Assembly: GCF_026196735.1 (NCBI RefSeq) | Contig: NZ_JAPHUF010000010.1 | Location: 62,001-126,000 of the forward strand | Reading direction: 5' to 3' | DNA length: 64,000 bases | Source of the DNA: Sulfurimonas sp. | Lineage (GTDB): Bacteria > Campylobacterota > Campylobacteria > Campylobacterales > Sulfurimonadaceae | Shown: positions 18,135 through 53,063 of the stretch, piece after piece | Layout: each line of letters starts with the position of its first letter | How positions within the stretch are numbered: the first letter of the stretch is position 1 | Notes under the pieces: model-generated | Database searches by the model: none | Told to the model about the DNA's origin: nothing | The model's input: the letters and a program-made list of their open reading frames with translations, nothing else | Made by a program: the position numbers and the translations under genes

Positions 18135-19371
18135 AATATGTATAATAGGCTTGGGTTATGTAGGACTACCGTTGGCTCATGCTTTTGCAAAAAAAAAGTA
18201 TGATGTGATTGGTTTTGATATCAATAATGAAAGGATATCAGAATTGAATAATAATTTTGATAGAACTTTAGAGTTAACTAGTAAGGAATTGACAGGAATA
18301 AAAAATCATCTTAGGTATAGTTCAAATTTAAATGATATAGAAAATTCAAATATTTATATAGTAACAGTACCAACTCCAATAGACAAAAATAATAAACCAG
18401 ATTTAACACCACTTATTAAATCATCCCAAACAGTCGGAAAAGTACTTAAAAAAGATGATATAGTTATTTATGAATCAACTGTTTATCCTGGTGTTACAGA
18501 AGATATCTGTGTTCCTGAACTAGAGAAAACTAGTGGACTTAAGTTTAATAGTGATTTTTTTTGTGGCTATAGTCCTGAACGAATAAATCCAGGAGATAAA
18601 GAACGTACTGTAACAAAAATACTTAAAGTAACGAGTGGAAGTACTCCAATCATAGCTACAAAAATAGATGAGTTGTATAAATCAATTATAACTGTTGGTA
18701 CATATAAATGTTCTAGTATAAAAGTAGCAGAAGCCAGTAAGGTAATAGAAAATACACAAAGAGATGTAAATATAGCACTTATAAATGAATTAGCACTTAT
18801 ATTTAATACTATGAATATACCTACAAATGAAGTAATAGAAGCAGCTGCAACAAAATGGAATTTTATTAAATTGAAACCTGGGCTTGTAGGTGGCCATTGC
18901 ATAGGTGTGGACCCATACTATCTTACGTATAAAGCTGAGGAATTAGGGTATAAGCCAAACCTAATTCTTGGTGCAAGACAAATTAATAATAGCATGGGTA
19001 AGTATGTAGTTGAAAAAACTATAAAACTTATGATAAAAAAAGATATAAATATAAATAGTGCTAAAGTTTTAGTACTAGGCATAGCATTTAAAGAGAACTG
19101 TCCTGATATACGAAATAGTAGAGTAGTTGATATTATTAATGGATTTCAAGAGTATGGATGCAATGTAGATGTAAGTGATTATCTTGTGAATAAAAATGAA
19201 GTAATGAAAGAATATAATTTACAATTAATTGAAAATTTTAAGTTAGATGAATATAAGGCTATTGTAGTAGCTGTAGGACATGAAAAGTACAAACAAATTA
19301 AATTAAATAACCTAGAACAAGTATTGTTTGATGTAAAGTCTATTTTGGATAGTTCTGATGGTACTTTATAA
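18127..19371 (+). CDS. tviB: UDP-N-acetylhexosamine 6-dehydrogenase (TviB/WbpO family)
   Basis: Oxidises a UDP-HexNAc to the uronic acid (UDP-GalNAcA or UDP-GlcNAcA). The 414-residue protein has GLGYVGLPLAHAFA, TVPTPID, YESTVYPGVTE, SPERINPGD and the catalytic GGHCIGVDPYYL with C258. Its segments resemble Vi-antigen TviB throughout. An A9 run at 18189-18197 near the 5' end is a possible slippage site. pglK follows with no gap. Substrate epimer is not decided by sequence. Confidence 0.9.
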   Translation: MYKICIIGLGYVGLPLAHAFAKKKYDVIGFDINNERISELNNNFDRTLELTSKELTGIKNHLRYSSNLNDIENSNIYIVTVPTPIDKNNKPDLTPLIKSSQTVGKVLKKDDIVIYESTVYPGVTEDICVPELEKTSGLKFNSDFFCGYSPERINPGDKERTVTKILKVTSGSTPIIATKIDELYKSIITVGTYKCSSIKVAEASKVIENTQRDVNIALINELALIFNTMNIPTNEVIEAAATKWNFIKLKPGLVGGHCIGVDPYYLTYKAEELGYKPNLILGARQINNSMGKYVVEKTIKLMIKKDININSAKVLVLGIAFKENCPDIRNSRVVDIINGFQEYGCNVDVSDYLVNKNEVMKEYNLQLIENFKLDEYKAIVVAVGHEKYKQIKLNNLEQVLFDVKSILDSSDGTL

Positions 19372-21057
19372 ATGACTAATAAGTTACATAGTATATTTAC
19401 AAAACAAGATAAAAAAAACTTCTTGATTCTGGTTTTATTTTCTATTTTAATTTCTATCATTGAAGTTATTGGTATATCTGCCATAATGCCATTTATGTCA
19501 GTTGCTATGGATTCCAATAGTATACATTCAAATAAATATTTTATATATTTTTTTAATTTATTTCAATTTGATGATGATATGCATTTTGTAATTATGTTTG
19601 GAATCATATTAATATTATATTATTTTTTTAGAAGTGCTATAAATATATATTATAACTATGCTATGGCGAAATTTTCCCATGAATGTTATCATTTTATAGT
19701 GTGTCGATTATTTAAGAATTATATGGGTATGGAATTTAAAGACTTTGTAAAAAAAAATTCATCAAATTTAACAAAAATAATTGTTTCTGAAGCAAACAAT
19801 TTAACTAGATTAATATCATCTGTATTGTTTATGATAAGCGAACTGCTAATTACTGTATTAATTTATAGCATGATGTTATTTATCAATTACAAAATTACAT
19901 TGTTATTAACATTCTTTTTTTTAATAAATGCTACTTTAATGCTGAAAACAATCTCAGTAAAAATAAAAAAACAAGGTGAGGATAGGGTGAATGTACAACA
20001 ATTATTCTTTGAAGTTATTAATAAAAGTTTTGGAAATTTTAAACTTATAAAGCTTCATACAAGTGATAATATTGTATTGAAAGAGTTTAAAGATGCTAGT
20101 TCCAATTATTCTAAAATTAATATAATGGCACAAACATTACTGCAAGTTCCTAAATTAGTTTTAGAAGCAATTGCGTTTAGTTTAATTATAATTATTGTAT
20201 TATATTTGGTTTGGAAATATGAAAACAATATTTCATCAGTTCTCTCTATGTTGTTTATGTTTGTATTGGCACTGTATAGATTGATGCCATCAATCAATAG
20301 AATAGCAACAAATTATAACAATATTTTATTTTATTTAAAATCATTAGAAGTTATACATAATGATTTAATATACAACACTGAATTATTAGGTGAGGAATTA
20401 GTATCTTTTAATAAGGAAATAGGTATTCAAAATATTAATTTTGAATACGATAAAGAAAAGACAGTATTAAAAGATATTAATATAAATATTAATAAAAATG
20501 ACAAAATAGCTTTTATTGGAGAGAGTGGAAGCGGAAAGTCTACATTAGTAGATATTATTATGGGACTGCATAAACCGACATCTGGCTGTATACATGTAGA
20601 TGATATAAAGCTAGATGAAACGAATATTAAGGACTGGAGATCTAAGATAGGTTATATTCCTCAAAGTGTATATCTTTTTGATGGTACAGTTGCAGATAAT
20701 ATAGTATTTGGAAGGGATTATGATGAAGGTAAAATTTTTGAAGTTTTAAAAAAAGCAAATATATATGATTTTATTTTAAACAAAGGTAGCCTATATACAT
20801 TAGTTGGAGAGGGTGGTGTAATGCTAAGTGGCGGGCAAAAACAAAGAATTGCTATAGCTAGAGCGTTATATGGTAATCCTGATATTTTAGTATTAGATGA
20901 AGCTACCTCTGCACTAGATTTAGAAACAGAAAGCAAAATTATGGATGAAATATACAATATTAGTGAAGACAAAACATTAATTATAATTGCACATAGACTA
21001 AGTACAATAGAAAGGTGTGAAAAAATTTATAGATTAGAAAATGGTGTAATAGTTTGA
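19372..21057 (+). CDS. pglK: Lipid-linked oligosaccharide flippase PglK (ABC transporter)
   Basis: PglK is an ATP-driven flippase that turns undecaprenyl-linked oligosaccharide to the periplasm for PglB. At 561 residues it is near the 564 of C. jejuni PglK and similar across its length. Six membrane helices lie in residues 1-310. The ATPase domain follows with Walker A GESGSGKST, signature LSGGQKQRIAIARAL, Walker B ILVLDEATSALD and the switch His in IIAHRLST. FVLALYRLMPSINRI is typical of PglK. The stop overlaps the TTG start of the next gene. Confidence 0.93.
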   Translation: MTNKLHSIFTKQDKKNFLILVLFSILISIIEVIGISAIMPFMSVAMDSNSIHSNKYFIYFFNLFQFDDDMHFVIMFGIILILYYFFRSAINIYYNYAMAKFSHECYHFIVCRLFKNYMGMEFKDFVKKNSSNLTKIIVSEANNLTRLISSVLFMISELLITVLIYSMMLFINYKITLLLTFFFLINATLMLKTISVKIKKQGEDRVNVQQLFFEVINKSFGNFKLIKLHTSDNIVLKEFKDASSNYSKINIMAQTLLQVPKLVLEAIAFSLIIIIVLYLVWKYENNISSVLSMLFMFVLALYRLMPSINRIATNYNNILFYLKSLEVIHNDLIYNTELLGEELVSFNKEIGIQNINFEYDKEKTVLKDINININKNDKIAFIGESGSGKSTLVDIIMGLHKPTSGCIHVDDIKLDETNIKDWRSKIGYIPQSVYLFDGTVADNIVFGRDYDEGKIFEVLKKANIYDFILNKGSLYTLVGEGGVMLSGGQKQRIAIARALYGNPDILVLDEATSALDLETESKIMDEIYNISEDKTLIIIAHRLSTIERCEKIYRLENGVIV

Positions 21058-21743
21058 AAAAAACCATTTTAATTCAAGCTAGACTTTCATCATCAAGGTT
21101 CCCAAAAAAAATGTTAGAAAAAATAAATAATATCACTCTAGTAGAGTATGTCTATAATAGATGTAATGAGTCAAAAAAAGCTAATAAAGTAGTTGTAATA
21201 ACTTCTGATGAAGAAAGTGATGATGAGTTATATGAACTATGTGTTAATAAAAATATTGCTGTTTTTAGGGGTGAACTAAATAATGTTTTAAAAAGGTATA
21301 TTGATGCTTCAATTTTTTTTGATGTAGATGTTATATGTAGAGTATGTGGTGATTCTCCATTTGTTGATGTTAAGGCTATAGATCAAATGTTTGATTACTA
21401 TGAATCTAATGCTAATATTGATTATATTTCAACAACAAATACTTTGAATGGATTTATGTCAGAAGTATTTAGTTCTAATTTATTAAATAAAGTATACAAT
21501 GACGACTTATCAAAGGAAGATAAAGAGCATGTAACAAAGTATATTCGTGATAATATTTCTAAGCTTAATGTAAAAGAATTAGATTTAAAGTTAAAGCCAA
21601 AAGAGTTAGAAAAGTTTACTTTAACTATAGATTATCCTGAAGATATGATTGTAGCCAAAATAATAGCATCAAATTTAGAAGATTTTTCTTTTAAATCAGA
21701 AGACATTATAAATATATTAAAAGACACTAAAGAAGAGATATGA
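21054..21743 (+). CDS. SpsF-like sugar nucleotidyltransferase (possible CMP transferase)
   Basis: A 229-residue protein starting QARLSSSRFPKKML, the SpsF/CMP-sialate-synthetase-like nucleotide loop, followed by ITSDEESDDEL and a GDSPFVD metal-site motif. Family members activate sugars, and some are annotated as CMP-nonulosonate synthetases. As the only cytidylyltransferase-like gene in the cassette, it is the natural candidate to activate the NeuB product. It starts with TTG overlapping the pglK stop and overlaps the next gene by 4 bases. Nucleotide and sugar specificity are unproven. Confidence 0.75.
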   Translation: MKKTILIQARLSSSRFPKKMLEKINNITLVEYVYNRCNESKKANKVVVITSDEESDDELYELCVNKNIAVFRGELNNVLKRYIDASIFFDVDVICRVCGDSPFVDVKAIDQMFDYYESNANIDYISTTNTLNGFMSEVFSSNLLNKVYNDDLSKEDKEHVTKYIRDNISKLNVKELDLKLKPKELEKFTLTIDYPEDMIVAKIIASNLEDFSFKSEDIINILKDTKEEI

Positions 21744-22600
21744 ATTATTCTACACCAGATTTTCCGTTAAGACTTGAAATTGAGTTAGTAAGTGATTGTA
21801 ACCTGAAATGTACATATTGTCCAAGGCACCTTGTTAATGAGTTAACTGGGTATATGACATTTGATTTATTTAAAAAAATTATTGATGAATCAGCAATCCA
21901 TCCTAGTACAACCTTAGTTTTACATAGGCGTGGGGAGAGTATGTTGCATCCACAGTTCAATGAAATGCTTAATTATGTTAGTGGTAAGTTTAAAGAAGTT
22001 CAAATGGCTACAAATGCCACAATTTTAAATCCTGATAAATATCAATCAATAATTAATGGACTTGATTTTTTATCTTTTAGTTTAGACACTCCTGAAAGAT
22101 TTAATATTACTAGACTGCCAGCGAAATATGAAAAAGTTGAAGCAAAAATTTTAGATTTTTTAGATTTTAATCAAGGTCGTGTGAGAACACAGGCATCTAT
22201 GGTTAAGACTGCTGAAACAACGGAAGATATGTGTAAAGAATTTATTAATATATGGAAAGATAAAGTTGACAGAGTGAGAATATATGAAGAACACTCAACT
22301 GATGGTAATTTTGGGTCACTTATAAATCCAAGAGAAGAAAGAAAACCATGTATGATGCCAGTTTACGAAATGCTTATATACGATAATGGAATTATTGCTA
22401 GATGTAATCATGATTGGGATAGTGATGGCATGGGTGATGTTACAAAAAATACATTACAAGAGATTTGGCATAATGATAAATATAAAAATTTACGTTGGCA
22501 ACATCTTGAACAAAAGTTATTTGATCCAGTATGTAGCACATGTGATAGTTGGTATCCGGAAATTGGAAATCAGGATACGGGCGAGGTTATAGAGAAATGA
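21740..22600 (+). CDS. Radical SAM/SPASM-like protein in glycan cassette
   Basis: The [4Fe-4S] motif C20-NLK-C24-TY-C27 is near the N-terminus of this 286-residue protein. The C-terminal part has KPCMMPVYEMLIYDNG, ARCNHDW, EIWHND and the pair CSTCDSWYP, matching a SPASM auxiliary iron-sulphur domain. Such proteins modify peptides or small substrates by radical chemistry. It is overlapped on both sides (4 bases each), so it is part of the cassette. I do not recognise a characterised equivalent. Possible roles are dehydration, epimerisation or deamination of a nucleotide sugar. Confidence 0.82.
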   Translation: MNYSTPDFPLRLEIELVSDCNLKCTYCPRHLVNELTGYMTFDLFKKIIDESAIHPSTTLVLHRRGESMLHPQFNEMLNYVSGKFKEVQMATNATILNPDKYQSIINGLDFLSFSLDTPERFNITRLPAKYEKVEAKILDFLDFNQGRVRTQASMVKTAETTEDMCKEFINIWKDKVDRVRIYEEHSTDGNFGSLINPREERKPCMMPVYEMLIYDNGIIARCNHDWDSDGMGDVTKNTLQEIWHNDKYKNLRWQHLEQKLFDPVCSTCDSWYPEIGNQDTGEVIEK

Positions 22601-23727
22601 TAAATTTTATACCATTGGCAAAGCCAGATATTGGTGATGATGAAATTAATTTAGTAGTAGATACAATTAAGTCTGGGTGGTTAACAACTGGTCCAAAAGT
22701 TACGGAATTTGAAAATGCATTATCAGAATATTTAAAATATGATGATGAGATATATTCTCTTGGTTTAAATTCATGCACTTCAGCACTTTTTTTAGCTCTC
22801 TTAGCTTTAGATGTAAAGGTGGGGGATGAGGTTATTGTGCCAACATGGACGTTTGCAGCTACTGCTCAAGTGGTGGATTGGATTGGTGCTAAAGTTGTTT
22901 TATGTGATATTGAAGAAGATACTTTAAATATAGATGTACATAAAGCAAAAAAATTGATTACGGATAAAACAAAGGCGATTATTCCAGTGCATATTGCTGG
23001 GTATCCTTGTGATATTCAAGCCATTAGTGATTTAGCAAAAAAATATAATTTAAAAGTTATAGAAGATGCAGCACATGCAATAGGTACAAGTTATAAAGAT
23101 AAAAAAATAGGAAACTTCTCAGATATTACATGTTTTAGTTTTTATGCAACAAAAAACCTAGCAATGGGTGAGGGTGGTGCAGCTGTTTCTAAAGATAAAG
23201 AATTAATTGAAAAAATGAGAAAGTTGAGTTATTTTGGAATTAATAAAGAAGCTTTTAAAAGATATGAAAAAGCTGGTCGTTGGTATTATGATATAGAAGA
23301 GATTGGTTATAAAGCAAACTTGGACAGTCTTCATGCTGCATTAGGAATAATTCAGTTAAATAAACTAGATAAAATGAATAAAAGAAGAAGATATATAGCT
23401 TCATATTATAGAAAAAATTTAACTAATAAATTAACTTTTAACAAGGATTCTGATGAGCATTCTCACACATATCATCTGTTTCCAATTAGATTACCTAAAA
23501 ATATTAATAGAGATGATTTTATAGAAGAATTAAAAGAAAACAATATTGGCGCAAGTGTGCATTTTATTCCTTTGCATTTGCATACTTTTTATAAAAATAG
23601 GTCTGATAATAATTTTGAAGTTGCTGACAGAGTTTTTGATACTATTTTATCTATTCCAATGTGTTCAGCTATGAGTGATGAAGAAGTAGAATATGTTGTT
23701 AAAACCATAAATAAAATAGTAGGTTGA
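22597..23727 (+). CDS. DegT/DnrJ/EryC1/StrS-family sugar aminotransferase
   Basis: A PLP-dependent aminotransferase that places an amino group on a keto-sugar nucleotide, like PseC, LegC or PglE. The 376-residue protein begins IPLAKPDIGDDE and has SGWLTTGPKV, NSCTSALFLALLAL, VIEDAAHAIGT and the PLP-binding K186 in FYATKNLAMGEGG. I chose the ATG at 22597, overlapping the previous stop (ATGA); an upstream in-frame start lies inside the radical SAM gene. The keto-sugar substrate would need a 4,6-dehydratase, which the cassette itself lacks. Confidence 0.9.
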   Translation: MINFIPLAKPDIGDDEINLVVDTIKSGWLTTGPKVTEFENALSEYLKYDDEIYSLGLNSCTSALFLALLALDVKVGDEVIVPTWTFAATAQVVDWIGAKVVLCDIEEDTLNIDVHKAKKLITDKTKAIIPVHIAGYPCDIQAISDLAKKYNLKVIEDAAHAIGTSYKDKKIGNFSDITCFSFYATKNLAMGEGGAAVSKDKELIEKMRKLSYFGINKEAFKRYEKAGRWYYDIEEIGYKANLDSLHAALGIIQLNKLDKMNKRRRYIASYYRKNLTNKLTFNKDSDEHSHTYHLFPIRLPKNINRDDFIEELKENNIGASVHFIPLHLHTFYKNRSDNNFEVADRVFDTILSIPMCSAMSDEEVEYVVKTINKIVG

Positions 23728-23731
23728 AATT

Positions 23732-25033
23732 ATGAATAACTTTAAAGAATTGATTTTAAAAACAAAAAAAGTTTCTATCTGGGGTATAGGATATTTAGGA
23801 TATACAACAATACTAAGATTACAAAAAAATGGGTTTAGAACAACAGTTTATGATTTTAATGAATCTAGGTTGGATGATTTAATAGGTAATACATACCCAA
23901 GTAAAGAACAATTAAATAGTTGGTCAAAGGGTGGTAAAATTCCTATTTTAAATCTTGAAAAACTGGATGTTGTTAAAGATAATAATTTATTGTTTGAAAA
24001 CCATGTACATATTGTATCATTTCCAAATACTGATAAATTTGATTATAGTGAATTAGCAAAATTATTTGTTAAAAACAGAGATAAATTAAAAGATTCTTTA
24101 ATTATATTTCAATCAGCAGGTATACCAAAAACAATTGAAGATGTTTTTTGTAAAATATTAGAAGAAAATAATTTAAATATTGAAGTCTCAACTGTTTTTA
24201 GAAGTGATTGGACAATTGAAGATTTTTTCAATAAAAACTATAAAAAAACAATATCAGGCAATAATCTAGAAGCAGTTGATAAAACACAAATCTTTCTTAA
24301 ATTATTGAACTTAGAATCGATAAAGCTAAGTAGCATTGAAGAATCTGAAATTTATGAAAATACAAAAAATGCATTAAACTATACTATGGTTGCATTTTTC
24401 AATCAGTTGTCTTTAGCATATCCACATGTAGATATTAATGAGTTGTCTAAAAATTTATTAAAAGATATGAATTTTAATAATTTATTTTTAGGTGTTAGCA
24501 GTGTAGATTATAAATCTGAACAATCTATAGAAAATATACTAAGAAGCTCTTCCGGAGACTTTTTATCGATTTTAAAAGAGGCAAACAATACAAATATTTC
24601 ATTTTTATTTTACTATGTTAATTTATTGAAAAATAAAAATGTAAATTCTGTAACAATACTTGGTCTTTCTTCTTATAATAGTATGAAAGATTTAAGATTT
24701 TCTCCATCAGTGATGTTAGCTGAATATCTCAATAAAGAAAATATACAAGTATACATACATGATGATAATTTTAATAAAGATGAAGTATTAGAGGTATTAC
24801 CACATTGTGAATTTATGGATATCAATTCAAATACGATAAAAACGGATGTGGTTGTAATAATGAGCTTATCTAAAGAATATAAATTTTATACTCAAAATAA
24901 AATAGATGAAATCGGTCTGTCAAAAGTTAAGTATGTTTTAGACAATACTGGTTTTTTTAAGAACTTTAAATACAGTGAGAATACTTTATATCATCAGTTG
25001 TGTGATGGTAACTTAATACAGGTTATAAACTAA
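23732..25033 (+). CDS. Divergent UDP-glucose/GDP-mannose dehydrogenase-like protein lacking the catalytic Cys
   Basis: The 433-residue protein keeps the family architecture: an N-terminal Rossmann motif GIGYLGYTTILRL with an acidic strand end (VYDFN), a central helical region, and a C-terminal domain TILGLSSYNSMKDLRFSPS that matches the usual LGxxxKxxxxDxRxSP pattern. Where the dehydrogenases carry GGxCxPKD, it reads RSSSGDF at 271-277, so there is no nucleophilic Cys, and the Lys of the C-terminal motif is Asn. It probably binds NAD(P) and a nucleotide sugar but cannot do the normal two-step oxidation. Function unknown. Confidence 0.75.
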   Translation: MNNFKELILKTKKVSIWGIGYLGYTTILRLQKNGFRTTVYDFNESRLDDLIGNTYPSKEQLNSWSKGGKIPILNLEKLDVVKDNNLLFENHVHIVSFPNTDKFDYSELAKLFVKNRDKLKDSLIIFQSAGIPKTIEDVFCKILEENNLNIEVSTVFRSDWTIEDFFNKNYKKTISGNNLEAVDKTQIFLKLLNLESIKLSSIEESEIYENTKNALNYTMVAFFNQLSLAYPHVDINELSKNLLKDMNFNNLFLGVSSVDYKSEQSIENILRSSSGDFLSILKEANNTNISFLFYYVNLLKNKNVNSVTILGLSSYNSMKDLRFSPSVMLAEYLNKENIQVYIHDDNFNKDEVLEVLPHCEFMDINSNTIKTDVVVIMSLSKEYKFYTQNKIDEIGLSKVKYVLDNTGFFKNFKYSENTLYHQLCDGNLIQVIN

Positions 25034-25036
25034 AAT

Positions 25037-26698
25037 ATGTGTGGAATAGCAGGTTTTATATCTTCAAATAAAAATTATGATTCAAAAAAAATAGTATCTA
25101 AAATGTTAGATTTGATATCTCATAGGGGACCAGATCAAAAAGATTTTGAAACTTATGATAATACAACAATGGGTATGGTTAGACTTAGTATAATAGACTG
25201 CATTGATCATGATATACCAATTGTTGATAATAGTGGAAATTATTCTATTGTCTATAATGGCGAGATATATAATCATGACTCAATAAGAAACTCACTTAAA
25301 TCTAGCTATAACTTTAGAACAAACTCAGATACAGAAACAGCCTTAGTTAGTTATATAAAAAACGGTGTAGACTCTTTTGGTGAACATAATGGAATGTATG
25401 CTTTTTCTATTTATGATAAACAAAAAAAAGAAACAACTATTGTTAGAGATAAATCTGGAGAAAAACCTTTATACTATACTCAAGGTAAAGATTTTTTCGC
25501 ATATGCAAGTGAGATGAAATGTTTACTTAATTTAGTGGAACCAAGATTTAATGATGAGGCAGTTTCTTATGAAGCTTATGAATTTACAGTTGGGAAAGAG
25601 ACACTTTTTAAAGATATATATCAATTAGAGCCAGGTGAATATATTAAAGTTAATAATGGGAAATACCAAGTCTATAATTATTGGAAAATTTGGGATAATA
25701 TTATTGATATACCAGATAATGAAGAAAAAATAATTTCTGATTTAAGTGAGTTAGTTGAGGATTCTATACTATTAAGAACAAAAAATACGGCACATCAATA
25801 TGCTGCATTTATTAGTGGTGGTGTTGATAGCTCACTTATTGCTTGTATCGCTAAGCCAGACTATTTATATACAGCACATTATAACTATAGTGACTTTGAT
25901 GAATTAGATTACGCTAAGATGGTGGCAAAACAGATTAATAAAGAATTAATTATTGTGTCACCAACCAAAGAAGACTTTATAAGAACAAGAAAGGATATAG
26001 CTTATCATCTAGATACTCCTTGTACTTGGACAAGTTTTACTTTGTGGATGTTACTAGAGAGGGCTAAAAAAGATGGCATAAAGATAGTTATGAGCGGTGA
26101 AGGTGCAGATGAAATGTTTGCAGGTTATCATAGATATCACTTACTTCACCATGACGAGCAAATACATAAGCTAGAAGCGATGAAACAATACTCTTATCTT
26201 ATTGGAAAGTATCATGGCTCAGCAAGTAGTAGATATGCAAAACTAGTCAATAGATGTGAAAATCCTTATAATGAAAAGGTTAATAGATATTTAGATGAAA
26301 CTATAGGAAATTATTCTGATAAAATGAGTGAAGATATTGTTCACTTTATGGGCTTAAATGATTTTTATAGCACAATGCAAGTACTTTTACAAATGAGTGA
26401 TAGATTGAATATGGCACATAGTATTGAAAATCGTTCTCCATTTTTAGATCATAGGTTGGTTCAATATTCTTTTTCTGTTCAATCAAAATATAAAATTAAA
26501 AATGGTATAACAAAGTGGATATTAAAAGAAGTTTCTAAAAAGTTTATTCCGAATGAAATAAGTAATAGAACTGATAAAAGAGGCTTTGCAGCCCCAATAA
26601 ATAAATGGTATGAGTGGGATGAAAATGGAAAATATAATAGAAGTGCTTACAAAAATATGGTTTTTGAAGATTGGAAAAAATCTTTTGGAGTTAAGTAA
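25037..26698 (+). CDS. Glutamine-dependent asparagine synthetase family amidotransferase
   Basis: The 553-residue protein has an N-terminal Ntn glutaminase with the processed Cys nucleophile (MCGIAGF), RGPDQKD and YNGEIYNH. The synthetase domain carries the PP-loop ISGGVDSSLIACIA and MSGEGADEMFAGYHRYH, then SIENRSPFLDHRLV. AsnB-type genes in glycan loci are often thought to amidate uronic acids rather than make asparagine. It lies between a dehydrogenase-like gene and an acetyltransferase, and the window also encodes UDP-GalA and UDP-HexNAcA synthesis, which supports that idea. Plain asparagine synthesis cannot be excluded. Confidence 0.85.
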   Translation: MCGIAGFISSNKNYDSKKIVSKMLDLISHRGPDQKDFETYDNTTMGMVRLSIIDCIDHDIPIVDNSGNYSIVYNGEIYNHDSIRNSLKSSYNFRTNSDTETALVSYIKNGVDSFGEHNGMYAFSIYDKQKKETTIVRDKSGEKPLYYTQGKDFFAYASEMKCLLNLVEPRFNDEAVSYEAYEFTVGKETLFKDIYQLEPGEYIKVNNGKYQVYNYWKIWDNIIDIPDNEEKIISDLSELVEDSILLRTKNTAHQYAAFISGGVDSSLIACIAKPDYLYTAHYNYSDFDELDYAKMVAKQINKELIIVSPTKEDFIRTRKDIAYHLDTPCTWTSFTLWMLLERAKKDGIKIVMSGEGADEMFAGYHRYHLLHHDEQIHKLEAMKQYSYLIGKYHGSASSRYAKLVNRCENPYNEKVNRYLDETIGNYSDKMSEDIVHFMGLNDFYSTMQVLLQMSDRLNMAHSIENRSPFLDHRLVQYSFSVQSKYKIKNGITKWILKEVSKKFIPNEISNRTDKRGFAAPINKWYEWDENGKYNRSAYKNMVFEDWKKSFGVK

Positions 26699-27327
26699 TG
26701 TTTGAATTTTTAGCTTTAATTACTAATAAGCACTATTGGAAACTTCACAGTTACATAATTAAATTTATATTTATTATTTATGGTATAAAAGTTGGTAAAA
26801 ATTTTTATTGTGAGGGTGTGCCAAAACTTAAAATACGAGGTAAAGCTAAAAATATTGTTATTGGAGATAATGTTAATTTTTTAGGTAATATTGACCTTAG
26901 AAATAGGGAAAATGGCAAAATTGTTATTTGTGATAGTGTAAGTATAGATAGTGATACTAGGTTTGTTTCTGCTAATGATACAATCTTAACTATAGGCGAA
27001 GGAACTGGAATAGGTCCTTTTTGTGTTTTCAACTGTGGTGTGAGCGTTAGTATTGGAAAAAATTGTTTAATTTCTGGACATATTTATATTCAATCTTCTG
27101 AGCATGGATTTGATAAAGGAAAGCTTATTAAAGAACAGAACCATTCATATGGTGAGATAATTATAGGAGATGATTGCTGGTTGGCAGCAGAAGTAATGAT
27201 CGCAAAAAATGTTAAGTTAGGTAGTGGATGCGTAGTTGGAGCTAAATCGTTTTTACGTAATATTGAATATGAAGATAATAGTATTATTACGGGTACACCA
27301 AGTAAAAAGATTGGGGAAAGAAAATGA
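26698..27327 (+). CDS. Left-handed beta-helix acyltransferase
   Basis: A 209-residue protein with hexapeptide repeats through residues 45-200 (IVIGDNVNFLGNI, TIGEGTGIGPFCVF, IIIGDDCWLAAEVMI, VKLGSGCVVGAKS), and a catalytic-type His in SSEHGFD. An N-terminal hydrophobic stretch near residues 15-32 may sit at the membrane. Family members are O- or N-acetyltransferases of surface sugars. It starts on the last base of the AsnB stop region and overlaps the next gene by 4 bases. Acceptor unknown. Confidence 0.82.
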   Translation: MFEFLALITNKHYWKLHSYIIKFIFIIYGIKVGKNFYCEGVPKLKIRGKAKNIVIGDNVNFLGNIDLRNRENGKIVICDSVSIDSDTRFVSANDTILTIGEGTGIGPFCVFNCGVSVSIGKNCLISGHIYIQSSEHGFDKGKLIKEQNHSYGEIIIGDDCWLAAEVMIAKNVKLGSGCVVGAKSFLRNIEYEDNSIITGTPSKKIGERK

Positions 27328-28454
27328 AATATTGTAAAAAATGTATTATGCCTACTAGTAGACCTGGAATTACTTTAAATGAAGAGGGCATATGTGGTGG
27401 ATGCTTAGGTTTTAAAGAAAAAAAAGAAGAGATTGATTGGAAATCAAGAGGCAAAGAATTAGATAAAATATTAGATACTTTTAGAAGTAAAGGTGATTAT
27501 GACTGTCTGATTCCAGTAAGTGGTGGAAAAGATAGCACATGGCAAGTATATACGATGCTTCAGCGGGGTATGAAACCTTTAGCAATAACCATAAAATGTC
27601 AATATAGAACAGAACTAGGGCAAAGAAACTTAGATAACTTAATAAGTTTAGGCGTAGATCATATTGACTTTACTGTTAATCCTGAAATTGACTCTAAATT
27701 TATGTTGAAGACATTTGAACAAAATGGTAATCCATCGCTAGTAGAACATCTAATAATGTGGTCCACTATTATTAAAACAGCACTTAGGTATAACATTAAT
27801 TTGATAGTTTGGGCTGAAAATTCTGCCTTGGAATATGGTGGTAGTAAAGATGATAGAAATAAATTTAGAATGGATTATGACTGGATAAAAAAATATGGTG
27901 TTACTAATGGAACAGTAGCTGAAGACTGGATAGATGAAAATATAACTTTAAAAGATATAAGTAGTTATCAGTTACCGTATGAATCTGAATTAAATAAAGC
28001 AGGTATTGAAAACTTATTCTTAGGTATGTATATGGAATGGGAGCCAGAGGATGTTGCAAAGAAATCACAAACAGTCGGCTTTGAATGGGCTGAAAATCCT
28101 GTTTTAGGTTTACATCCTTTTGTAGGTGTTGATTGTGATTTTAGAGTAGTACACCATTTTATGAAGTGGTATAAATTTGGATTAACAAAGCTTTGGGATA
28201 ATCTAGCTATTGAAATTCGAGAAGGAAGAATGACAAGAGATGAGTCTGTAGAATATCTTAAAAATAATGAAGAGCCTATACCGAACAAAGAGATAGAAAG
28301 TTTTTGTAGTTATTTAAATATATCTATAGAAAGATTTTATGAATTAGCGGAATCTCATAGAAATTTAGACATATGGGAAAAAGATGAATATGGAAGTTGG
28401 TATTTGCCTGCATTTAAAAAAGAATTTGGATTTTGGAAAGAGTTTTTAAAGTGA
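27324..28454 (+). CDS. N-acetyl sugar amidotransferase (PseA/WbpG/PtmG-like)
   Basis: A 376-residue adenine-nucleotide alpha-hydrolase-fold enzyme with PP-loop PVSGGKDSTWQ and paired cysteines CKKC and CGGC that probably bind zinc. WAENSALEYGGS and LGLHPFVGVDCDFRVVHHFMKWYKFG are characteristic of the PseA/WbpG family, which makes acetamidino groups on nonulosonates or 2,3-diacetamido sugars. In Pseudomonas it works with HisH/HisF-like partners; none is present here. It sits 340 bases upstream of a NeuB-type synthase, consistent with an amidino nonulosonate. Confidence 0.85.
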   Translation: MKYCKKCIMPTSRPGITLNEEGICGGCLGFKEKKEEIDWKSRGKELDKILDTFRSKGDYDCLIPVSGGKDSTWQVYTMLQRGMKPLAITIKCQYRTELGQRNLDNLISLGVDHIDFTVNPEIDSKFMLKTFEQNGNPSLVEHLIMWSTIIKTALRYNINLIVWAENSALEYGGSKDDRNKFRMDYDWIKKYGVTNGTVAEDWIDENITLKDISSYQLPYESELNKAGIENLFLGMYMEWEPEDVAKKSQTVGFEWAENPVLGLHPFVGVDCDFRVVHHFMKWYKFGLTKLWDNLAIEIREGRMTRDESVEYLKNNEEPIPNKEIESFCSYLNISIERFYELAESHRNLDIWEKDEYGSWYLPAFKKEFGFWKEFLK

Positions 28455-28801
28455 GACTTGATTTAACAGATGAACCAAGACATTTTGGTGTAAAAGGGCA
28501 TGAAATAAAAGATTATGGAAAAATCTTTTTAAATCATGATGAGATGGTTTCTTTTAAATCAGGGAGTGGTAAAGAGTATGACTTCGTTGCAAAAGAGTGG
28601 GGATTTTATGCTACACCCTCCATTAATTCTAGATTGATAAAAGAAGGCTTTAAAACTGCTTTAGTAGTTAATGAAAGTAACCAATTATATATAATGGCAG
28701 TTGAGAAAGATAAGCTTGATATTTTTAAAAAGTATTTAAAAAATAATCAGGACAATAAAATCATTTGTTGGTTAGATGAATTTTTTAAGGAAGAGAATTG
28801 A
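28451..28801 (+). CDS. Small conserved-looking protein of unknown function
   Basis: I do not recognise this 116-residue protein. It starts at GTG 28451 overlapping the previous stop (GTGA), and its stop overlaps the TTG of neuB. The tight two-sided coupling argues that it is a real cassette member. A longer reading from 28433 would overlap the preceding gene without a start signal. It has no signal peptide or membrane segment. The sequence is charged, with a central KEWGFYATPSINSRL and a C-terminal half (LYIMAVEKDKLDIF) with alternating beta and helix character. It could be a small binding partner of the amidotransferase or synthase. Confidence 0.65.
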   Translation: MRLDLTDEPRHFGVKGHEIKDYGKIFLNHDEMVSFKSGSGKEYDFVAKEWGFYATPSINSRLIKEGFKTALVVNESNQLYIMAVEKDKLDIFKKYLKNNQDNKIICWLDEFFKEEN

Positions 28802-29859
28802 AAACTTACATAATAGCAGAAATAGGGATAAATTTTAATGGCAGTCTTGACAACTGTTACAAAATGATTGATATGTCTGTTAATGCTGGTTGTAATGCAG
28901 CTAAATTTCAAATATTTAGTGCAAAAAATTTGTATCCAAGAAGTGCAGGTGAACTCGATTGGAAAGATGATAAAGAAGAATATAGTTATGATATTTTTGA
29001 GGCTGTAAAAAAATTCGAATTACCAAATGAGTGGGTAGATGAATTAATGAAGTATTGCAAAGACAAAAAAATAGATTTTATGGCTTCAGTATTTGATATC
29101 GAAGGTTTGAATATAATGATAGAAAAAGGGATGAAAGTAATTAAACTTTCTTCTTATACCATTACTAATATACCTCTTATTGAAGCTGCTGCAAAAACTG
29201 GACTTCCTATTATTATGAGTACTGGTGGTGCTACTATCGGTGAAACAGAAGGTGCCGTTAATACAGTTTTAAAGTATCATGACAATTTAACTATATTGCA
29301 TTGCTCGATTCAATATCCGACAAAGTTAGAAGATGTAAATATGGGTGTTATGGATACATTTGCAAAAGTTTTTCCAAATATTAAAACCGGGTATTCAGAT
29401 CATACAGAGGAACCTTCAGATGCACCTGTTCAATCTATTTATTTAGGTGGATCAGTTGTTGAAAAACATATAACATTAGATAAGCAGATGAAAGGTCCTG
29501 ATCATTTCTTCGCACTTGAACCAGATGAATTGAAAAAGATGGTTGTAGATATTAGAGATGCAGAAAAACGATATGAAAAAAAGACTTTTAAAATTGACAA
29601 AACTATATATGGAAGCAGTGAAAAAATATGTCATGAACATGAACAATATTTAAGAGATTTTTGTTATATGACACTGTTTTCTAAAAAAGATATTCAAAAA
29701 GGCGAAATAATAAAAGCAGAAGATATTTCTATTTTAAGAGCAGGTAAAAAAGAAAAAGGTTTGGAGCCTAAGTATCTTAAGTTATTTAAAGAAAACAAAG
29801 TAACCGCAACAAAAAATATTGGCTTTGAAGATCCAATAAATTGGGAATCTATTTTATAA
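28798..29859 (+). CDS. neuB: NeuB-family nonulosonate synthase (PEP-condensing, with SAF domain)
   Basis: Condenses phosphoenolpyruvate with a six-carbon amino sugar to give a nine-carbon sialic-acid-like sugar. The 353-residue protein has EIGINFNGSLD, AAKFQIF, KLSSYTITNIPLIE, LHCSIQYPT, GYSDHT and VEKHITLDKQMKGPDHFFALEPDE. A C-terminal SAF (antifreeze-like) domain begins near residue 285 (FCYMTLFSKKDIQKGE). The GPDHFFALEP stretch differs from the usual NeuB, LegI and PseI forms, so the product cannot be named. It uses TTG at 28798 with a strong AAGGAAGAG ribosome-binding site. Confidence 0.9.
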   Translation: MKTYIIAEIGINFNGSLDNCYKMIDMSVNAGCNAAKFQIFSAKNLYPRSAGELDWKDDKEEYSYDIFEAVKKFELPNEWVDELMKYCKDKKIDFMASVFDIEGLNIMIEKGMKVIKLSSYTITNIPLIEAAAKTGLPIIMSTGGATIGETEGAVNTVLKYHDNLTILHCSIQYPTKLEDVNMGVMDTFAKVFPNIKTGYSDHTEEPSDAPVQSIYLGGSVVEKHITLDKQMKGPDHFFALEPDELKKMVVDIRDAEKRYEKKTFKIDKTIYGSSEKICHEHEQYLRDFCYMTLFSKKDIQKGEIIKAEDISILRAGKKEKGLEPKYLKLFKENKVTATKNIGFEDPINWESIL

Positions 29860-30846
29860 ATGAGAAAGATACTCTTTAGGGCAGATGCTGCTCCTCATAT
29901 TGGGATAGGTGATTTGATGTCATTGATCAATATATCAAAGTATTTTGATGAAACTTATGAAAAGTATTTTATAATCAAAGATTATAAAGCTGGGGTAGAG
30001 TTAGTTAAAAAATATGATTTGCAAAATTGTTTTATTATTGATTCTACTACAGTATTAAAAGATGAAATCACATATATAAATAATTTTATAGATAGTTATG
30101 ACATAGATATACTGTTTTTTGAAATTACAGAAAGAAAGTTATCTGAGTATAGTGGTATAAGTGAAAAAATTAAAAAAGTAGCAGTTAATTTTGATGGTAA
30201 TATTTTAGATGATTTAGATTTGGTAATTGATTGGGATGTCGAGGCTCATAAGTTTTTCGATATAAAAAAGTATCCAAATACAAGATTTCTACTAGGGCCA
30301 GAATATGTTATTTTACCTAAAGAATTTTATTCTAAAAAGGTAAAAATAAGAAAATTCAATTTAACTAATAAAAAAGTTTTAATCGCAATGGGTGGGGCAG
30401 ATGAATTTGATTTTACTGGTAAAGTTGTCGATAGTATAATAAGATTCAATTTAGAAATAGAGTTAAATGTTATCACAGGTTCTGGTTATGAATATAAAGA
30501 TATCTTGGAAGCTAGATTAAACAACAGTGGTGTGAAGTACCAAATAAAGCATAACATTACAAATATGCTAGATGAATACTTGGCTTGTGACATAGGTATA
30601 GGAGCAGGTGGACTGACATCTAGCGAATTGGTAGCAACAAAAGTTTCACCTATTTTAATTGCAACTTATAAACATCAAATAGCAAGATGTGAATATTTTG
30701 ATGAAAAAGGCTGGGCAAAATATTTAGGTTACAGAGAACTTAGTGATAGTGAATTGAGAGATGCTATCACAAACCCAATTAAACCATTAGACAAAAACAT
30801 TTTCAATACAAGTAAAATAGTGGAGTTAATAGATGAGCTTTTCTAA
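29860..30846 (+). CDS. PseG-like nucleotide-sugar hydrolase homologue with altered active site
   Basis: A 328-residue GT-B-like protein related to PseG, which removes UDP from UDP-2,4-diacetamido-trideoxy-altrose before PseI acts. It retains RADAAPHIGIG, AMGGADEFDFTG and the C-terminal DIGIGAGGLTSSELVATKVSPILIA. The catalytic His of PseG (His17 in a GxGH motif) is replaced by Asp at residue 18 in GIGDLMS, and the following Arg is absent. It lies directly after neuB, the expected place for the hydrolase. Either the chemistry is shifted or the protein has another role. Confidence 0.78.
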   Translation: MRKILFRADAAPHIGIGDLMSLINISKYFDETYEKYFIIKDYKAGVELVKKYDLQNCFIIDSTTVLKDEITYINNFIDSYDIDILFFEITERKLSEYSGISEKIKKVAVNFDGNILDDLDLVIDWDVEAHKFFDIKKYPNTRFLLGPEYVILPKEFYSKKVKIRKFNLTNKKVLIAMGGADEFDFTGKVVDSIIRFNLEIELNVITGSGYEYKDILEARLNNSGVKYQIKHNITNMLDEYLACDIGIGAGGLTSSELVATKVSPILIATYKHQIARCEYFDEKGWAKYLGYRELSDSELRDAITNPIKPLDKNIFNTSKIVELIDELF

Positions 30847-31588
30847 TGATATTGTGCTAAAAGATGAAGAGATATGCTATTATTTTAGATATTTGGATTG
30901 GGATAGTGAATTTTTCAATAGACCATCATATTTTTTAGATATTAAAAAATCAAATCTTCTTGTGAGTAATCTGATAAAAAAAGAAATACAAGAAAGATTA
31001 AAAGGATGTTTTGTTACCGTAAAAATAGATACATGTTTTAATTATGAAATAGTGTCATTTTTACAAGAATGCGGTTGTACTTACATTGATACAGAAATTA
31101 CACTGGAATATATAAGTGATAAAAACTCTGAAGATAAAGATACTATCAATCAAATTCAAGCAATCAAAGAAAATAAAAATGAAAAACTACCGTATGATGA
31201 ATTAGGAAAGTCGTTTTCCTTAACAAGATTTCATACAGATTTAAATATTAGTAATTCTAAAGCAGATATTTTATGGACAAATTACTTGAAAAACTATAAA
31301 CTTTCAGAGGATAAGCATATGTTTAGTGCCAAAATTAGTGGTGAGTTTGCTGGTATTATTTTGGTTAATGTAGATAAAGAAATAGCGACACTTTTTTTTG
31401 TAGCAGTAGTAGAACAGTTTAGAGGATTAGGAGTTGGCAGAGTGCTTATTAATAAAGTTTTAGATTATTTTAAAGATTATACAATTCAAACAGGAACACA
31501 AGTTAAAAATACTAATGCTCTAAATTTTTATATCAGCAACGGTTTAAGTAAAATTCAAAAAACTTCAACAATTTTACATAGGTGGTAG
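30833..31588 (+). CDS. GNAT acetyltransferase, WecD/PseH-like
   Basis: A 251-residue protein. The N-terminal YFRYLDWDSEFFNRPSYFLD resembles the WecD family, and the C-terminal GNAT acetyl-CoA site reads VEQFRGLGVGRVLI, followed by NTNALNFYISNGL. Such enzymes acetylate the 4-amino group of 4-amino-4,6-dideoxy sugars, so the DegT aminotransferase product at 22597 is a logical substrate. It overlaps the PseG-like gene by 14 bases and ends next to a scar of gene fragments. Confidence 0.83.
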   Translation: MSFSNDIVLKDEEICYYFRYLDWDSEFFNRPSYFLDIKKSNLLVSNLIKKEIQERLKGCFVTVKIDTCFNYEIVSFLQECGCTYIDTEITLEYISDKNSEDKDTINQIQAIKENKNEKLPYDELGKSFSLTRFHTDLNISNSKADILWTNYLKNYKLSEDKHMFSAKISGEFAGIILVNVDKEIATLFFVAVVEQFRGLGVGRVLINKVLDYFKDYTIQTGTQVKNTNALNFYISNGLSKIQKTSTILHRW

Positions 31589-50370: not shown

Positions 50371-51330
50371 ATGATATACATAGTTTTATTTCTTATCTCT
50401 TTTACTCTTACATATCTTATAAAAAATTATGCTATTAAGAAATCTCTTGTAGCAGAAGTAAATGACAGAAGTTCTCATACTACGCCAACTCCTCATGGCG
50501 GTGGAATAGCCATAGCTATTACTTGGTTTATCGGAATATCATATTTATATTATATCAACGATATAAATAGTTCTTTGTATTTAGCGTTGTTAGCGGGTGC
50601 AATGATTTCCATAGTTTCTTATCTTGATGATTTATATGAACTTAGTGCCAAAGTTAGGCTTGCTACACAAATATTAGTTGCATTTATTGGTTTGTACTTT
50701 TTAGGTGGTTTAGAAAAAATTGATCTAGTTGTATTCTCTATAGAAAATCAGATAGTTACAAATATATTTGCAATACTCATGATAGTTTGGTTTATAAATC
50801 TTTACAACTTTTTAGATGGCATAGATGGATATGCTGGAAGTGAAGCTATATTTTTAGGACTAGCTGGATATTTACTTTTCTCTCAAAGTTATTTTTTAGT
50901 TTTAGTAGCGGCTGTTTTTGGATTTTTGATTTGGAACTGGCATAAAGCAAAAATATTTATGGGTGATGTTGGTAGTACGCTTCTTGGATATAACATAGCC
51001 GTATTTACTATTTATTATGCAAATATCGAGAGTGCAAATCTTTGGGTTTGGATTACTATGTTTGGATTGTTTTGGTTTGATGCGACATTAACTCTGTATC
51101 GAAGATATAAAAATAAAGAAAAATTATCTCAAGCTCATAAAAAACATGCATATCAACGATTGACGCAAAGTGGATGGACTCACAGCAGGGTAGTAGTGTT
51201 TTCTATTTTAGGGAATGCTTTATTATTATGCATAGTGTATTTAATTTCAAATGTATTGATTGCATTCTGTGTGTCACTTATGCTACTCTATGCAATTGTA
51301 AAGTTTGTAGACAATAAAAAGGCATTTTAG
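50371..51330 (+). CDS. WecA/WbpL-like undecaprenyl-phosphate sugar-phosphate transferase
   Basis: A 319-residue multi-span MraY/WecA-family enzyme that loads the first sugar phosphate on undecaprenyl phosphate. Key sites: SSHTTPTPHGGGIAIA, SYLDDLYELSAKVRL (Mg site), NLYNFLDGIDGYAGSE, FMGDVGSTLLGY and HKKHAYQRLTQ. No PglC-type initiator is visible, so this would start the glycan here. It begins right after the reductase stop, and the WbpM-like gene starts on its last base. Confidence 0.9.
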   Translation: MIYIVLFLISFTLTYLIKNYAIKKSLVAEVNDRSSHTTPTPHGGGIAIAITWFIGISYLYYINDINSSLYLALLAGAMISIVSYLDDLYELSAKVRLATQILVAFIGLYFLGGLEKIDLVVFSIENQIVTNIFAILMIVWFINLYNFLDGIDGYAGSEAIFLGLAGYLLFSQSYFLVLVAAVFGFLIWNWHKAKIFMGDVGSTLLGYNIAVFTIYYANIESANLWVWITMFGLFWFDATLTLYRRYKNKEKLSQAHKKHAYQRLTQSGWTHSRVVVFSILGNALLLCIVYLISNVLIAFCVSLMLLYAIVKFVDNKKAF

Positions 51331-53063
51331 TGTTTTATTTAGACAAAAGAATATTAAATTTTTTAGTAATAATCATATTGACTTGTATCACATTTTGGTG
51401 GACTTTTTTTATATTCCATATGCCGTTTGATTTCAAACTTGTACTTAGTGTAATTGCTATTCGTATACTGTTTTCGTTACTTATTTTTAATGATTACTCC
51501 ATTTCATGGTCAAAAGCTTCTCAAAAAACATTTATAATTAAAAGTGTTGTATACATAAGTGCATTTTTTGTTTATCTTCCCATATTTTATGGTGAAGTTA
51601 GATTCGCATTTTTAGCCTCAGAACTCTTCTTGTATCTTTTTAGCATTAATTTTATTATGTATCTTTACTACTATATAATCAATAAAAGTCGTATTGAAAA
51701 AACGAAGTCAGTAGTTATATATGGCGCTGGAAAAGCTGGTGTAAAGCTAGAGTCAGAATTTACGCAAACAGAATTTAAAGTTAAATATTTTGTAGATGAT
51801 GATAAAATTATTCAAAACCGTTCAATTGATTCAATTCAGGTACTTTCAAAAGAAAAGCTAAAAGCTAAAATCGGTAATGAAAAATATGACCTATTAGTTA
51901 TAGCAATGCCATCAGCCACAAAAGTTAGAATTAAAGATATTTATAATGATTTTGGAGGATATTTTAGAGAAATAAAAGTATTGCCATCCCTGGATGAGAT
52001 ACTAGAAGGTAAAGATTTTTCTACTCAGTTAAAAGATATCTCTGTAGAAGATTTATTAGCTCGTCATCCTCAGGATTTGGATAAAAATAAAATATCATCT
52101 TTTATAAAAAATAAAACTATTTTAGTAACTGGCGCTGGTGGTAGTATCGGTAGTGAGATATGCAGACAGTGTGAAAAATTTGGCGCAAAAAAACTTATAC
52201 TTTTAGATCATAGTGAATATAATCTATATGCTATTAGTGAAGATATTAAAAATGTTGAGACTATACTCGTTATGCAAAATATAGTTGATAAAGAATTTTT
52301 AGATAAAACATTTAAAAATTATATGCCGGATATAGTTATCCATGCAGCGGCATATAAACATGTACCGTTGGTAGAATCCAATATACAAGAAGGTATATTA
52401 AACAATGTAGTAGGCACAAAAAATGTCATCGACACATCTATAAAATATGGCGTAAAGAAACTTGTAATGATATCTACTGATAAAGCAGTGCGTCCGACAA
52501 ATGTTATGGGAACAACAAAGCGGATTTGTGAACTATATGCTCAAAACTCTAATGGAAAAGGCACGGATATAGTGGCAGTTAGATTTGGTAATGTTTTAGG
52601 ATCAAGTGGCAGTGTTATACCAAAGTTTAAATCTCAGATAGAAAATGGTCAAAATATTACCGTAACTCATCCTGATATTACAAGATATTTTATGCTTATT
52701 CCTGAGGCATGTGAACTTGTACTTCAAGCTGGAGCAATTGGAACTGGTGGAGAGATATTTATCCTAGATATGGGTGAACCAATCAAAATAGTTGATTTGG
52801 CACAAAAAATGATTGAACTTAGTGGGCGAGAAGGCATAGAGATTGAGTTTTCAGGACTTCGTCCAGGTGAAAAACTTTATGAAGAGTTGTTGATAGATGA
52901 TAGCGATACGAAAACTGATTATGAGTCTATTACAGTTGCAAGTCCGACAGAGTATGATATAGATAAGTTAAATAGCGACATAGAGGAGTTATTGACATGT
53001 AAAGATAAATTGTCAAAACTTAAAGAGATAGTGCCGGAGTTCAATCATCAGAAAAATAATTAG
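51330..53063 (+). CDS. Membrane-bound UDP-GlcNAc C6-dehydratase (WbpM/PglF-like)
   Basis: A 577-residue protein: four membrane helices in residues 1-125, a CoA-binding-like Rossmann domain (VVIYGAGKAGVKL), and a C-terminal SDR dehydratase with LVTGAGGSIGSEICRQC, AAYKHVPLVESN, STDKAVRPTNVMGTTKR and VRFGNVLGSSGSVIPKF. Met in the MGTTK site instead of Tyr is normal for WbpM-type enzymes. Product is UDP-4-keto-6-deoxy-GlcNAc for the WbpV-like reductase, and possibly for the DegT aminotransferase. GTG start at 51330. Last gene of the glycan run. Confidence 0.92.
   Translation: MFYLDKRILNFLVIIILTCITFWWTFFIFHMPFDFKLVLSVIAIRILFSLLIFNDYSISWSKASQKTFIIKSVVYISAFFVYLPIFYGEVRFAFLASELFLYLFSINFIMYLYYYIINKSRIEKTKSVVIYGAGKAGVKLESEFTQTEFKVKYFVDDDKIIQNRSIDSIQVLSKEKLKAKIGNEKYDLLVIAMPSATKVRIKDIYNDFGGYFREIKVLPSLDEILEGKDFSTQLKDISVEDLLARHPQDLDKNKISSFIKNKTILVTGAGGSIGSEICRQCEKFGAKKLILLDHSEYNLYAISEDIKNVETILVMQNIVDKEFLDKTFKNYMPDIVIHAAAYKHVPLVESNIQEGILNNVVGTKNVIDTSIKYGVKKLVMISTDKAVRPTNVMGTTKRICELYAQNSNGKGTDIVAVRFGNVLGSSGSVIPKFKSQIENGQNITVTHPDITRYFMLIPEACELVLQAGAIGTGGEIFILDMGEPIKIVDLAQKMIELSGREGIEIEFSGLRPGEKLYEELLIDDSDTKTDYESITVASPTEYDIDKLNSDIEELLTCKDKLSKLKEIVPEFNHQKNN

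Follow-up and report, generated by a model that had tools for sequence, protein, structure and literature searches.

A conserved nonulosonate gene cassette with a radical SAM protein and altered enzymes in Sulfurimonas and distantly related bacteria

To our knowledge, the described pathways to diamino nonulosonates (NulOs) begin with a 4,6-dehydratase and yield 9-deoxy sugars. The Campylobacter jejuni-type pathway to cytidine monophosphate (CMP)-legionaminic acid consists of LegB, C, H, G, I and F together with PtmE. In butirosin synthesis, BtrS, a member of the DegT family, aminates a ketone that BtrN has made. BtrN is a radical S-adenosylmethionine (SAM) enzyme that oxidises a cyclitol hydroxyl to the ketone and carries a four-Cys auxiliary cluster (PMC9012708). 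The legionaminic acid pathway encoded by the sps genes of Bacillus subtilis comprises SpsM, C, D, G, E and F, and its dehydratase lies outside the operon (PMC7439481). Here we describe an eleven-gene cassette in a 64,000-nucleotide stretch of Sulfurimonas sp. DNA (contig NZ_JAPHUF010000010.1, positions 62,001 to 126,000; hereafter the window). It resembles the sps system in its SpsF-type cytidylyltransferase, DegT aminotransferase, GNAT acetyltransferase, PseG-like hydrolase and NeuB synthase, in the sister position of its NeuB to SpsE and in having no dehydratase gene within the operon. However, compared with the sps gene list (PMC7439481), it has in addition a radical SAM protein, a protein with the fold of UDP-sugar dehydrogenases (DHlike), an AsnB amidotransferase, a hexapeptide acetyltransferase, a WbuX amidotransferase and a 116-residue protein. 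We consider that this is very probably a NulO cassette with a non-standard product.

A search of 84,980 species genomes with a DHlike profile gave 13 loci, and genome searches added those of G069 and G462. Two loci with distant DHlike homologues in other NulO clusters (L047 and L048) were rejected as carriers because their NeuBs form a separate clade, and a short contig end (L044) was also excluded, which leaves the cassette in 13 genomes, the window included. These genomes span at least five phyla or classes; the Campylobacterota carriers are the window genome, its relative in the same genus (G063), G068, G069, G136 and G462, and the others are an Omnitrophota metagenome-assembled genome (MAG), two Nitrospirae MAGs, Magnetominusculus, a Desulfobacterales MAG, a gammaproteobacterial MAG and one further bacterium. 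The recurring gene order is SpsF–rSAM–DegT–DHlike–AsnB–(Hexa)–(WbuX–small)–(second AsnB)–NeuB–PseG–(GNAT)–(PIG-L)–(formyltransferase), where rSAM, Hexa and small stand for the radical SAM, hexapeptide and 116-residue proteins and brackets mark optional genes. SpsF leads nine cassettes besides that of the window and is placed after NeuB in G136, and none was found in the Desulfobacterales locus (L045). The radical SAM gene was present in 11 of the 11 loci that reach its position (the contigs of L040 and G136 end before it), and DHlike was directly followed by AsnB in all 13 cassettes, an adjacency also seen in L047, which has no cassette-type radical SAM gene. In seven cassettes (e.g., L032:6246-8120, L033:13064-14938 and L046:15067-16941), NeuB is preceded by an AsnB of a second clade (about 624-636 aa), which the window cassette does not have. 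The Magnetominusculus cassette is divided between two contigs, with PseG not seen beside its NeuB, and the G069 contig stops after NeuB. An apparent DegT–DHlike fusion in G136 was discarded, since it is an assembly gap translated through as X.

Among 397 complete genomes of the window's phylum, DHlike (>550 bits) and the cassette radical SAM protein (>540 bits) were found in the same three, and the next-best radical SAM protein scored 155 bits. Surface-sugar loci mix genes freely and the optional genes differ between cassettes, so one might suppose that a NulO operon and unrelated modification genes have become neighbours by chance in a polysaccharide locus of the ordinary kind. However, the core order is fixed in 13 genomes of several phyla, and the radical SAM and DHlike genes share an identical phyletic pattern; these cassette counts make chance neighbourhood highly unlikely. 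The gammaproteobacterial genes are ~53-81% identical to those of the window, and the gammaproteobacterial NeuB is nested among Campylobacterota NeuBs, which indicates, at the level of sequence comparison, that the cassette was horizontally transferred across distantly related bacteria. What these comparisons show is a conserved and transferred NulO cassette with extra conserved enzymes and, as described below, conserved active-site changes.

The assignment to a NulO pathway, with roles given by family and a step order like that of B. subtilis Sps, is well supported by our analysis. An earlier note made from the window sequence alone had described eleven coupled genes of a nonulosonate-type cluster. 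Eleven collinear open reading frames (ORFs), overlapping or a few bases apart, are indeed present at 21054..31588 (Table 1), family searches of all eleven proteins agree with the families that were named, and a NeuB-family synthase, a PseG-like hydrolase and a CTP transferase stand in one operon, as expected of such a cluster. In the phylogenetic tree, the cassette NeuBs formed a single clade (100/100) that was sister to B. subtilis SpsE (100/96) and separate from both the PseI group and the LegI-like group. The cassette NeuB thus belongs to the SpsE group as a separate sister clade and, lying outside the PseI group, is not that of a pseudaminic pathway; in addition, the PseB-type Tyr triad was absent among the strong PF02719 matches of the window genome. 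A LegI-like NeuB does occur in this genome, outside the cassette on contig C8, in a set with a cytidylyltransferase, a CBS–NTP transferase (PtmE-like), a NeuC-type enzyme, a NeuD-type acetyltransferase, a DegT and a dehydratase. Because the LegI-like NeuB lies in this conventional set, the cassette is, on sequence grounds, a second and separate NulO pathway distinct from the legionaminic set on C8. The C. jejuni-type pathway, to which the C8 set corresponds, shares the general NulO logic with the cassette but differs in its NeuC-type hydrolase and LegI-like NeuB and has no radical SAM, DHlike or AsnB. The earlier note had held that a NeuB placed cleanly with LegI or PseI and a complete conventional pathway elsewhere, or a lack of co-occurrence of the extra genes in other genomes, would speak against a new route. 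Neither outcome was observed: the NeuB falls in neither group, although a conventional legionaminic pathway does exist on C8, and the extra genes accompany the cassette NeuB in unrelated genomes.

Seven Cys residues are invariant in the 11 cassette copies of the radical SAM protein (C20, C24 and C27 in CxxxCxxC, and C204, C222, C265 and C268), and both sequence marks of the BtrN type, the CxxxCxxC motif and a four-Cys auxiliary cluster site, are present. A profile of the 11 proteins matched BtrN (4m7t and 4m7s) with E 5e-14, and the next solved structure with 1.6e-4. As in the BtrN/BtrS system, a radical SAM protein with a single four-Cys auxiliary site is encoded next to a DegT gene, but the substrate of BtrN is an aminocyclitol, and the cassette protein is only remotely similar to it. 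The nearest relatives outside the cassette, about 30-38% identical, likewise have DegT as a neighbouring gene, and in many cases an AsnB-like gene as well. Radical SAM relatives adjoined DegT in 10 of 14 loci compared with 4.0 expected, and 0 of 20000 shuffles reached 10; the crude gene calls overlooked one further DegT adjacency, that of L162, which is plain in the annotation. Loci with the pair include a Lawsonia plasmid and a deltaproteobacterial plasmid. The DegT and AsnB proteins beside the distant relatives belong to other clades than those of the cassette, so that the pairing of radical SAM and DegT outlives the identity of the DegT, and the idea that all these loci are one inherited module was dropped. 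The cassette DegT itself has ArnB as its best solved match and scored 365 bits with the PseC model, below the cut-off of 423. We give slightly less than even credence to the proposal that the radical SAM product feeds DegT.

Among these loci, operons of radical SAM, DegT and AsnB were found at L161:8986-14740 (Lawsonia intracellularis plasmid NC_008013.1) and L162:8950-12931 (CP026658.1), with radical SAM proteins 38% identical to that of the window. NeuB was not present in the fetched stretches of either, and the operons possibly represent another amino-sugar pathway with the radical SAM–DegT pairing. A plasmid search with the cassette AsnB gave no match at E 1e-80. In Campylobacterota, radical SAM–DegT–AsnB-like groups occur in L149, L150, L151, L152 and L155, some near flagellin-like genes, with no NeuB visible; the large proteins adjoining radical SAM in L149 and L151 were considered as Maf-like, and Pfam gives no such match. 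Other NulO clusters, on a Neorhizobium galegae plasmid (L163:8857-14463) and in Nitrospinae (L048:2537-11344), encode a radical SAM protein that is longer (356 aa) and more distantly related, next to NeuB, SpsF, PseG-like and PIG-L genes.

Two cassette enzymes have altered active sites. The PseG-like protein falls outside PseG proper, since it scores below the equivalog cut-off (Table 1) and has Asp in place of the catalytic His; GxGD was found in all nine cassette copies with an intact N-terminus, and GxGH in four comparison copies, which did not include B. subtilis SpsG. DHlike shares the entire fold and the NAD-type glycine motif of UDP-glucose and GDP-mannose dehydrogenases (Cap5O, GMD and UGDH), but the catalytic Cys, Lys and Asp are substituted, and it scored 89 bits against a subfamily cut-off of 190. 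In a HMMER alignment with Cap5O, the catalytic Cys corresponds to Lys261, the catalytic Lys to Glu209 and the Asp to Ser, and the Asn is retained. Across the 12 cassette copies that were aligned, the Cys position is occupied by Lys in ten copies, by Arg in L039 and by Gln in L045, and the Lys position by Glu everywhere except in L045 (Gln). The distant Nitrospinae homologue in L048 retains both Cys and Lys, so that the change belongs to the cassette lineage. The AlphaFold model of DHlike (predicted local distance difference test, pLDDT, 89) matched 1mfz with a Z of 26.0 and a root-mean-square deviation (rmsd) of 4.3 A over 394 residues. For other UDP/GDP-sugar dehydrogenases, the rmsd of the alignment to the model was large, possibly because the domains are arranged differently. 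DHlike has the fold of a UDP-sugar 6-dehydrogenase, but its catalytic residues set it outside that group. Both the dehydrogenase-like protein without its Cys and the changed PseG-like residue had been pointed out from the window alone; both are real and kept across phyla.

The 116-residue protein was found in all nine cassettes that have WbuX and was absent from the four that do not (G136, G462, L039 and L045), suggesting that it is likely the partner of WbuX, itself a WbuX/PseA-type amidotransferase by its TIGR03573 score (Table 1). Eight copies share 42 invariant residues, no Pfam or PHROGs family matched, and the structure model was poor (pLDDT 56).

A route may be proposed from these data. 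The radical SAM protein, acting like BtrN, would oxidise a sugar hydroxyl to a ketone, and DegT would aminate the ketone on the nucleotide-linked sugar. In the remaining steps, which belong to the well-supported NulO assignment, the hexapeptide and GNAT enzymes would acylate the amino sugar, the PseG-like enzyme would take off the nucleotide, the SpsE-side NeuB would join the sugar to phosphoenolpyruvate, and SpsF would activate the NulO with CMP; WbuX and the 116-residue protein, where present, would add an amidine. More speculatively, DHlike and AsnB may act as a second redox-plus-nitrogen pair giving a carboxamide, and we think it rather unlikely that DHlike feeds AsnB. If the radical SAM protein makes the ketone, a 4,6-dehydratase is unneeded, and the product may retain an oxygen that is absent from legionaminic and pseudaminic acids. 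We put at about even odds the explanation as a whole, in which the cassette produces an undescribed amino-nonulosonate, activated with CMP and destined for surface polysaccharide or flagellin. The G069 cassette comes after a flagellin gene and a Maf glycosyltransferase gene; therefore it probably acts on flagellin there, and on polysaccharide in the window.

No UDP-N-acetylhexosamine 4,6-dehydratase gene was seen in the fetched flanks of any cassette. The earlier statement that no dedicated dehydratase is present is thus true of the cassette itself, but a PglF/WbpM-like gene (Table 1) lies 20 kb downstream in the same polysaccharide locus, and the window genome has further members of this family. 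PglF-type dehydratases were found in the genomes of the window, G063, G068, G462, L039, L040 and L046, the class in G462 being assigned by protein length and not by the triad; in the complete G000, the PglF type is present and the PseB type absent. In three carriers, namely the complete G069 and the assemblies of G136 and the Desulfobacterales, the PseB type (T-x9-Y-x3-K) was the only class, as was the LegB type in Magnetominusculus. No class was common to all carriers in this comparison, which covered every carrier genome except that of L043. Because the classes differ among carriers and none lies in the cassette flanks, sequence data favour, without proof, a cassette that makes its own ketone rather than using a 4,6-dehydratase.

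The same genes could instead run an Sps-type legionaminic route, in which the PglF-like dehydratase would act in trans, and DegT, an acetyltransferase, the PseG-like enzyme, NeuB and SpsF would yield a legionaminic-type sugar that radical SAM, DHlike, AsnB and WbuX then decorate by epimerisation or dehydrogenation, amide and amidine formation. In B. subtilis, SpsM/C/D/G/E/F carries out just such a core pathway, its dehydratase being unlinked (PMC7439481); the cassette NeuB is sister to SpsE, and the PglF-like gene is in the same locus. The absence of a shared dehydratase class however speaks against such a route, as do the Omnitrophota assembly (completeness unknown), which has no dehydratase above the level of generic short-chain dehydrogenases/reductases, and the persistence of the radical SAM–DegT pairing in loci without a visible NeuB. 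We regard this alternative as tentative and somewhat doubtful.

The extra genes (radical SAM, DHlike and AsnB) might also build an acyl or amino-acid-like substituent on an ordinary NulO. AsnB enzymes act on carboxylates, which would suit this explanation. A precedent may be seen in the Shewanella flagellar NulO, which carries an unidentified moiety of 236-264 Da (PMC3765264). However, the extra genes are intermixed with SpsF and DegT, the order of all of them being fixed, and a BtrN-like radical SAM protein and a UDP-sugar dehydrogenase fold suggest sugar substrates, so that we find a substituent pathway quite improbable. The Shewanella sfmABCDE genes were considered as a counterpart of the cassette and set aside, as they are different genes with no radical SAM, DegT or AsnB.

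Several points weigh against the route starting from a radical SAM-made ketone. Most carriers hold some 4,6-dehydratase, and the B. subtilis sps cluster is served by an unlinked one (PMC7439481). The cassette DegT is nearest to C4 aminotransferases (ArnB and PseC), which use keto-sugars from other sources. That BtrN is the closest structure gives weak support for the reaction, since few twitch radical SAM enzymes have been solved and BtrN is among these. Some of the 14 loci used for the adjacency test are related to one another, so that the test overstates their independence. In the family of DHlike, carboxylates are made by a Cys that DHlike itself does not have, which disfavours a carboxylate for AsnB, and the proposed chemistry is drawn from sequences and models. 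In its full form, namely a dehydratase-free radical SAM route to a diamino nonulosonate that keeps the oxygen lost in legionaminic and pseudaminic acids and possibly bears a carboxamide, with a UDP-sugar dehydrogenase turned to a new use and a PseG relative that works through Asp, the proposal would on balance be unlikely.

Table 1. Genes of the cassette and the downstream dehydratase gene (window positions).
Feature	Coordinates	Strand	Basis
SpsF-like cytidylyltransferase	21054..21743	+	PF02348 (CTP_transf_3) 119 bits
Radical SAM/SPASM-twitch protein	21740..22600	+	seven invariant Cys; best solved match BtrN
DegT/PseC/ArnB-type aminotransferase	22597..23727	+	PF01041 414 bits; own clade
UDP-sugar-dehydrogenase-fold protein (DHlike), rebuilt active site (Lys261, Glu209)	23732..25033	+	UDPG_MGDP_dh-like; Cap5O alignment; AlphaFold fold match
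AsnB-type glutamine-dependent amidotransferase, MC... N-terminus kept	25037..26698	+	TIGR01536 399 bits, cut-off 267
Hexapeptide (left-handed beta-helix) acetyltransferase	26698..27327	+	PF00132
WbuX/PseA-type N-acetyl sugar amidotransferase	27324..28454	+	TIGR03573 314 bits, curated cut-off 203
116-residue protein without family	28451..28801	+	gene co-occurrence with WbuX; 42 invariant residues
NeuB-type NulO synthase, SpsE side	28798..29859	+	PF03102 246 bits; tree
PseG-like nucleotide-sugar hydrolase, Asp for catalytic His	29860..30846	+	TIGR03590 103 bits, equivalog cut-off 153.6
GNAT acetyltransferase	30833..31588	+	PF00583 45 bits
PglF/WbpM-like UDP-N-acetylglucosamine (UDP-GlcNAc) 4,6-dehydratase	51330..53063	+	PF02719 388 bits; TdkAvrptnvMgttK triad

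The window has a GC content of 30% and is part of a 2.19 Mb genome. The starts of DegT (22597, 376 aa) and of the small protein (28451, 116 aa) were set by comparison with relatives. The surrounding polysaccharide locus encodes sugar dehydrogenases, GDP-mannose/fucose enzymes, an ABC transporter, glycosyltransferases, a WecA-like transferase and the PglF/WbpM-like dehydratase. A UDP-GlcNAc 6-dehydrogenase gene (TviB/WbpA type) lies immediately upstream of SpsF in G068 (L033:3358-4608) and G462 (L125:8450-9697) and one gene further upstream in the window (18127-19371); it may be a source of a uronate precursor. Right behind the cassette, a 104-residue ORF (31742-32056) resembles a piece of a longer gene, and a MurB-like FAD-binding protein (33796-34779; PF01565 only) is encoded amid the surface-sugar locus. 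The gene for the ABC transporter that lies upstream of the G063 cassette is in two parts with a transposase-looking ORF between them (L032:17196-19204).

The open-access literature, to which our search was confined (subscription papers lay outside its scope), holds no pathway with a radical SAM protein in a nonulosonic, legionaminic, pseudaminic or flagellin-glycosylation context. The claim that no described pathway contains these genes together therefore stands for the combination, but not for the SpsF–DegT–GNAT–PseG–NeuB core and the lack of a linked dehydratase, which are not new by themselves because the B. subtilis sps pathway has been described (PMC7439481).

The presence of a conserved radical SAM cassette in polysaccharide and flagellin loci of several phyla suggests an unrecorded sialic-acid-like sugar and opens to testing the wider question of which functions radical SAM proteins have in loci for surface sugars. 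This question reaches further still, since radical SAM is also paired with DegT in other loci of flagella and on plasmids, the Lawsonia one included. If true, the dehydratase-free reading would mean that both the sialic-acid-like sugar and the manner in which nitrogen enters surface sugars are new.

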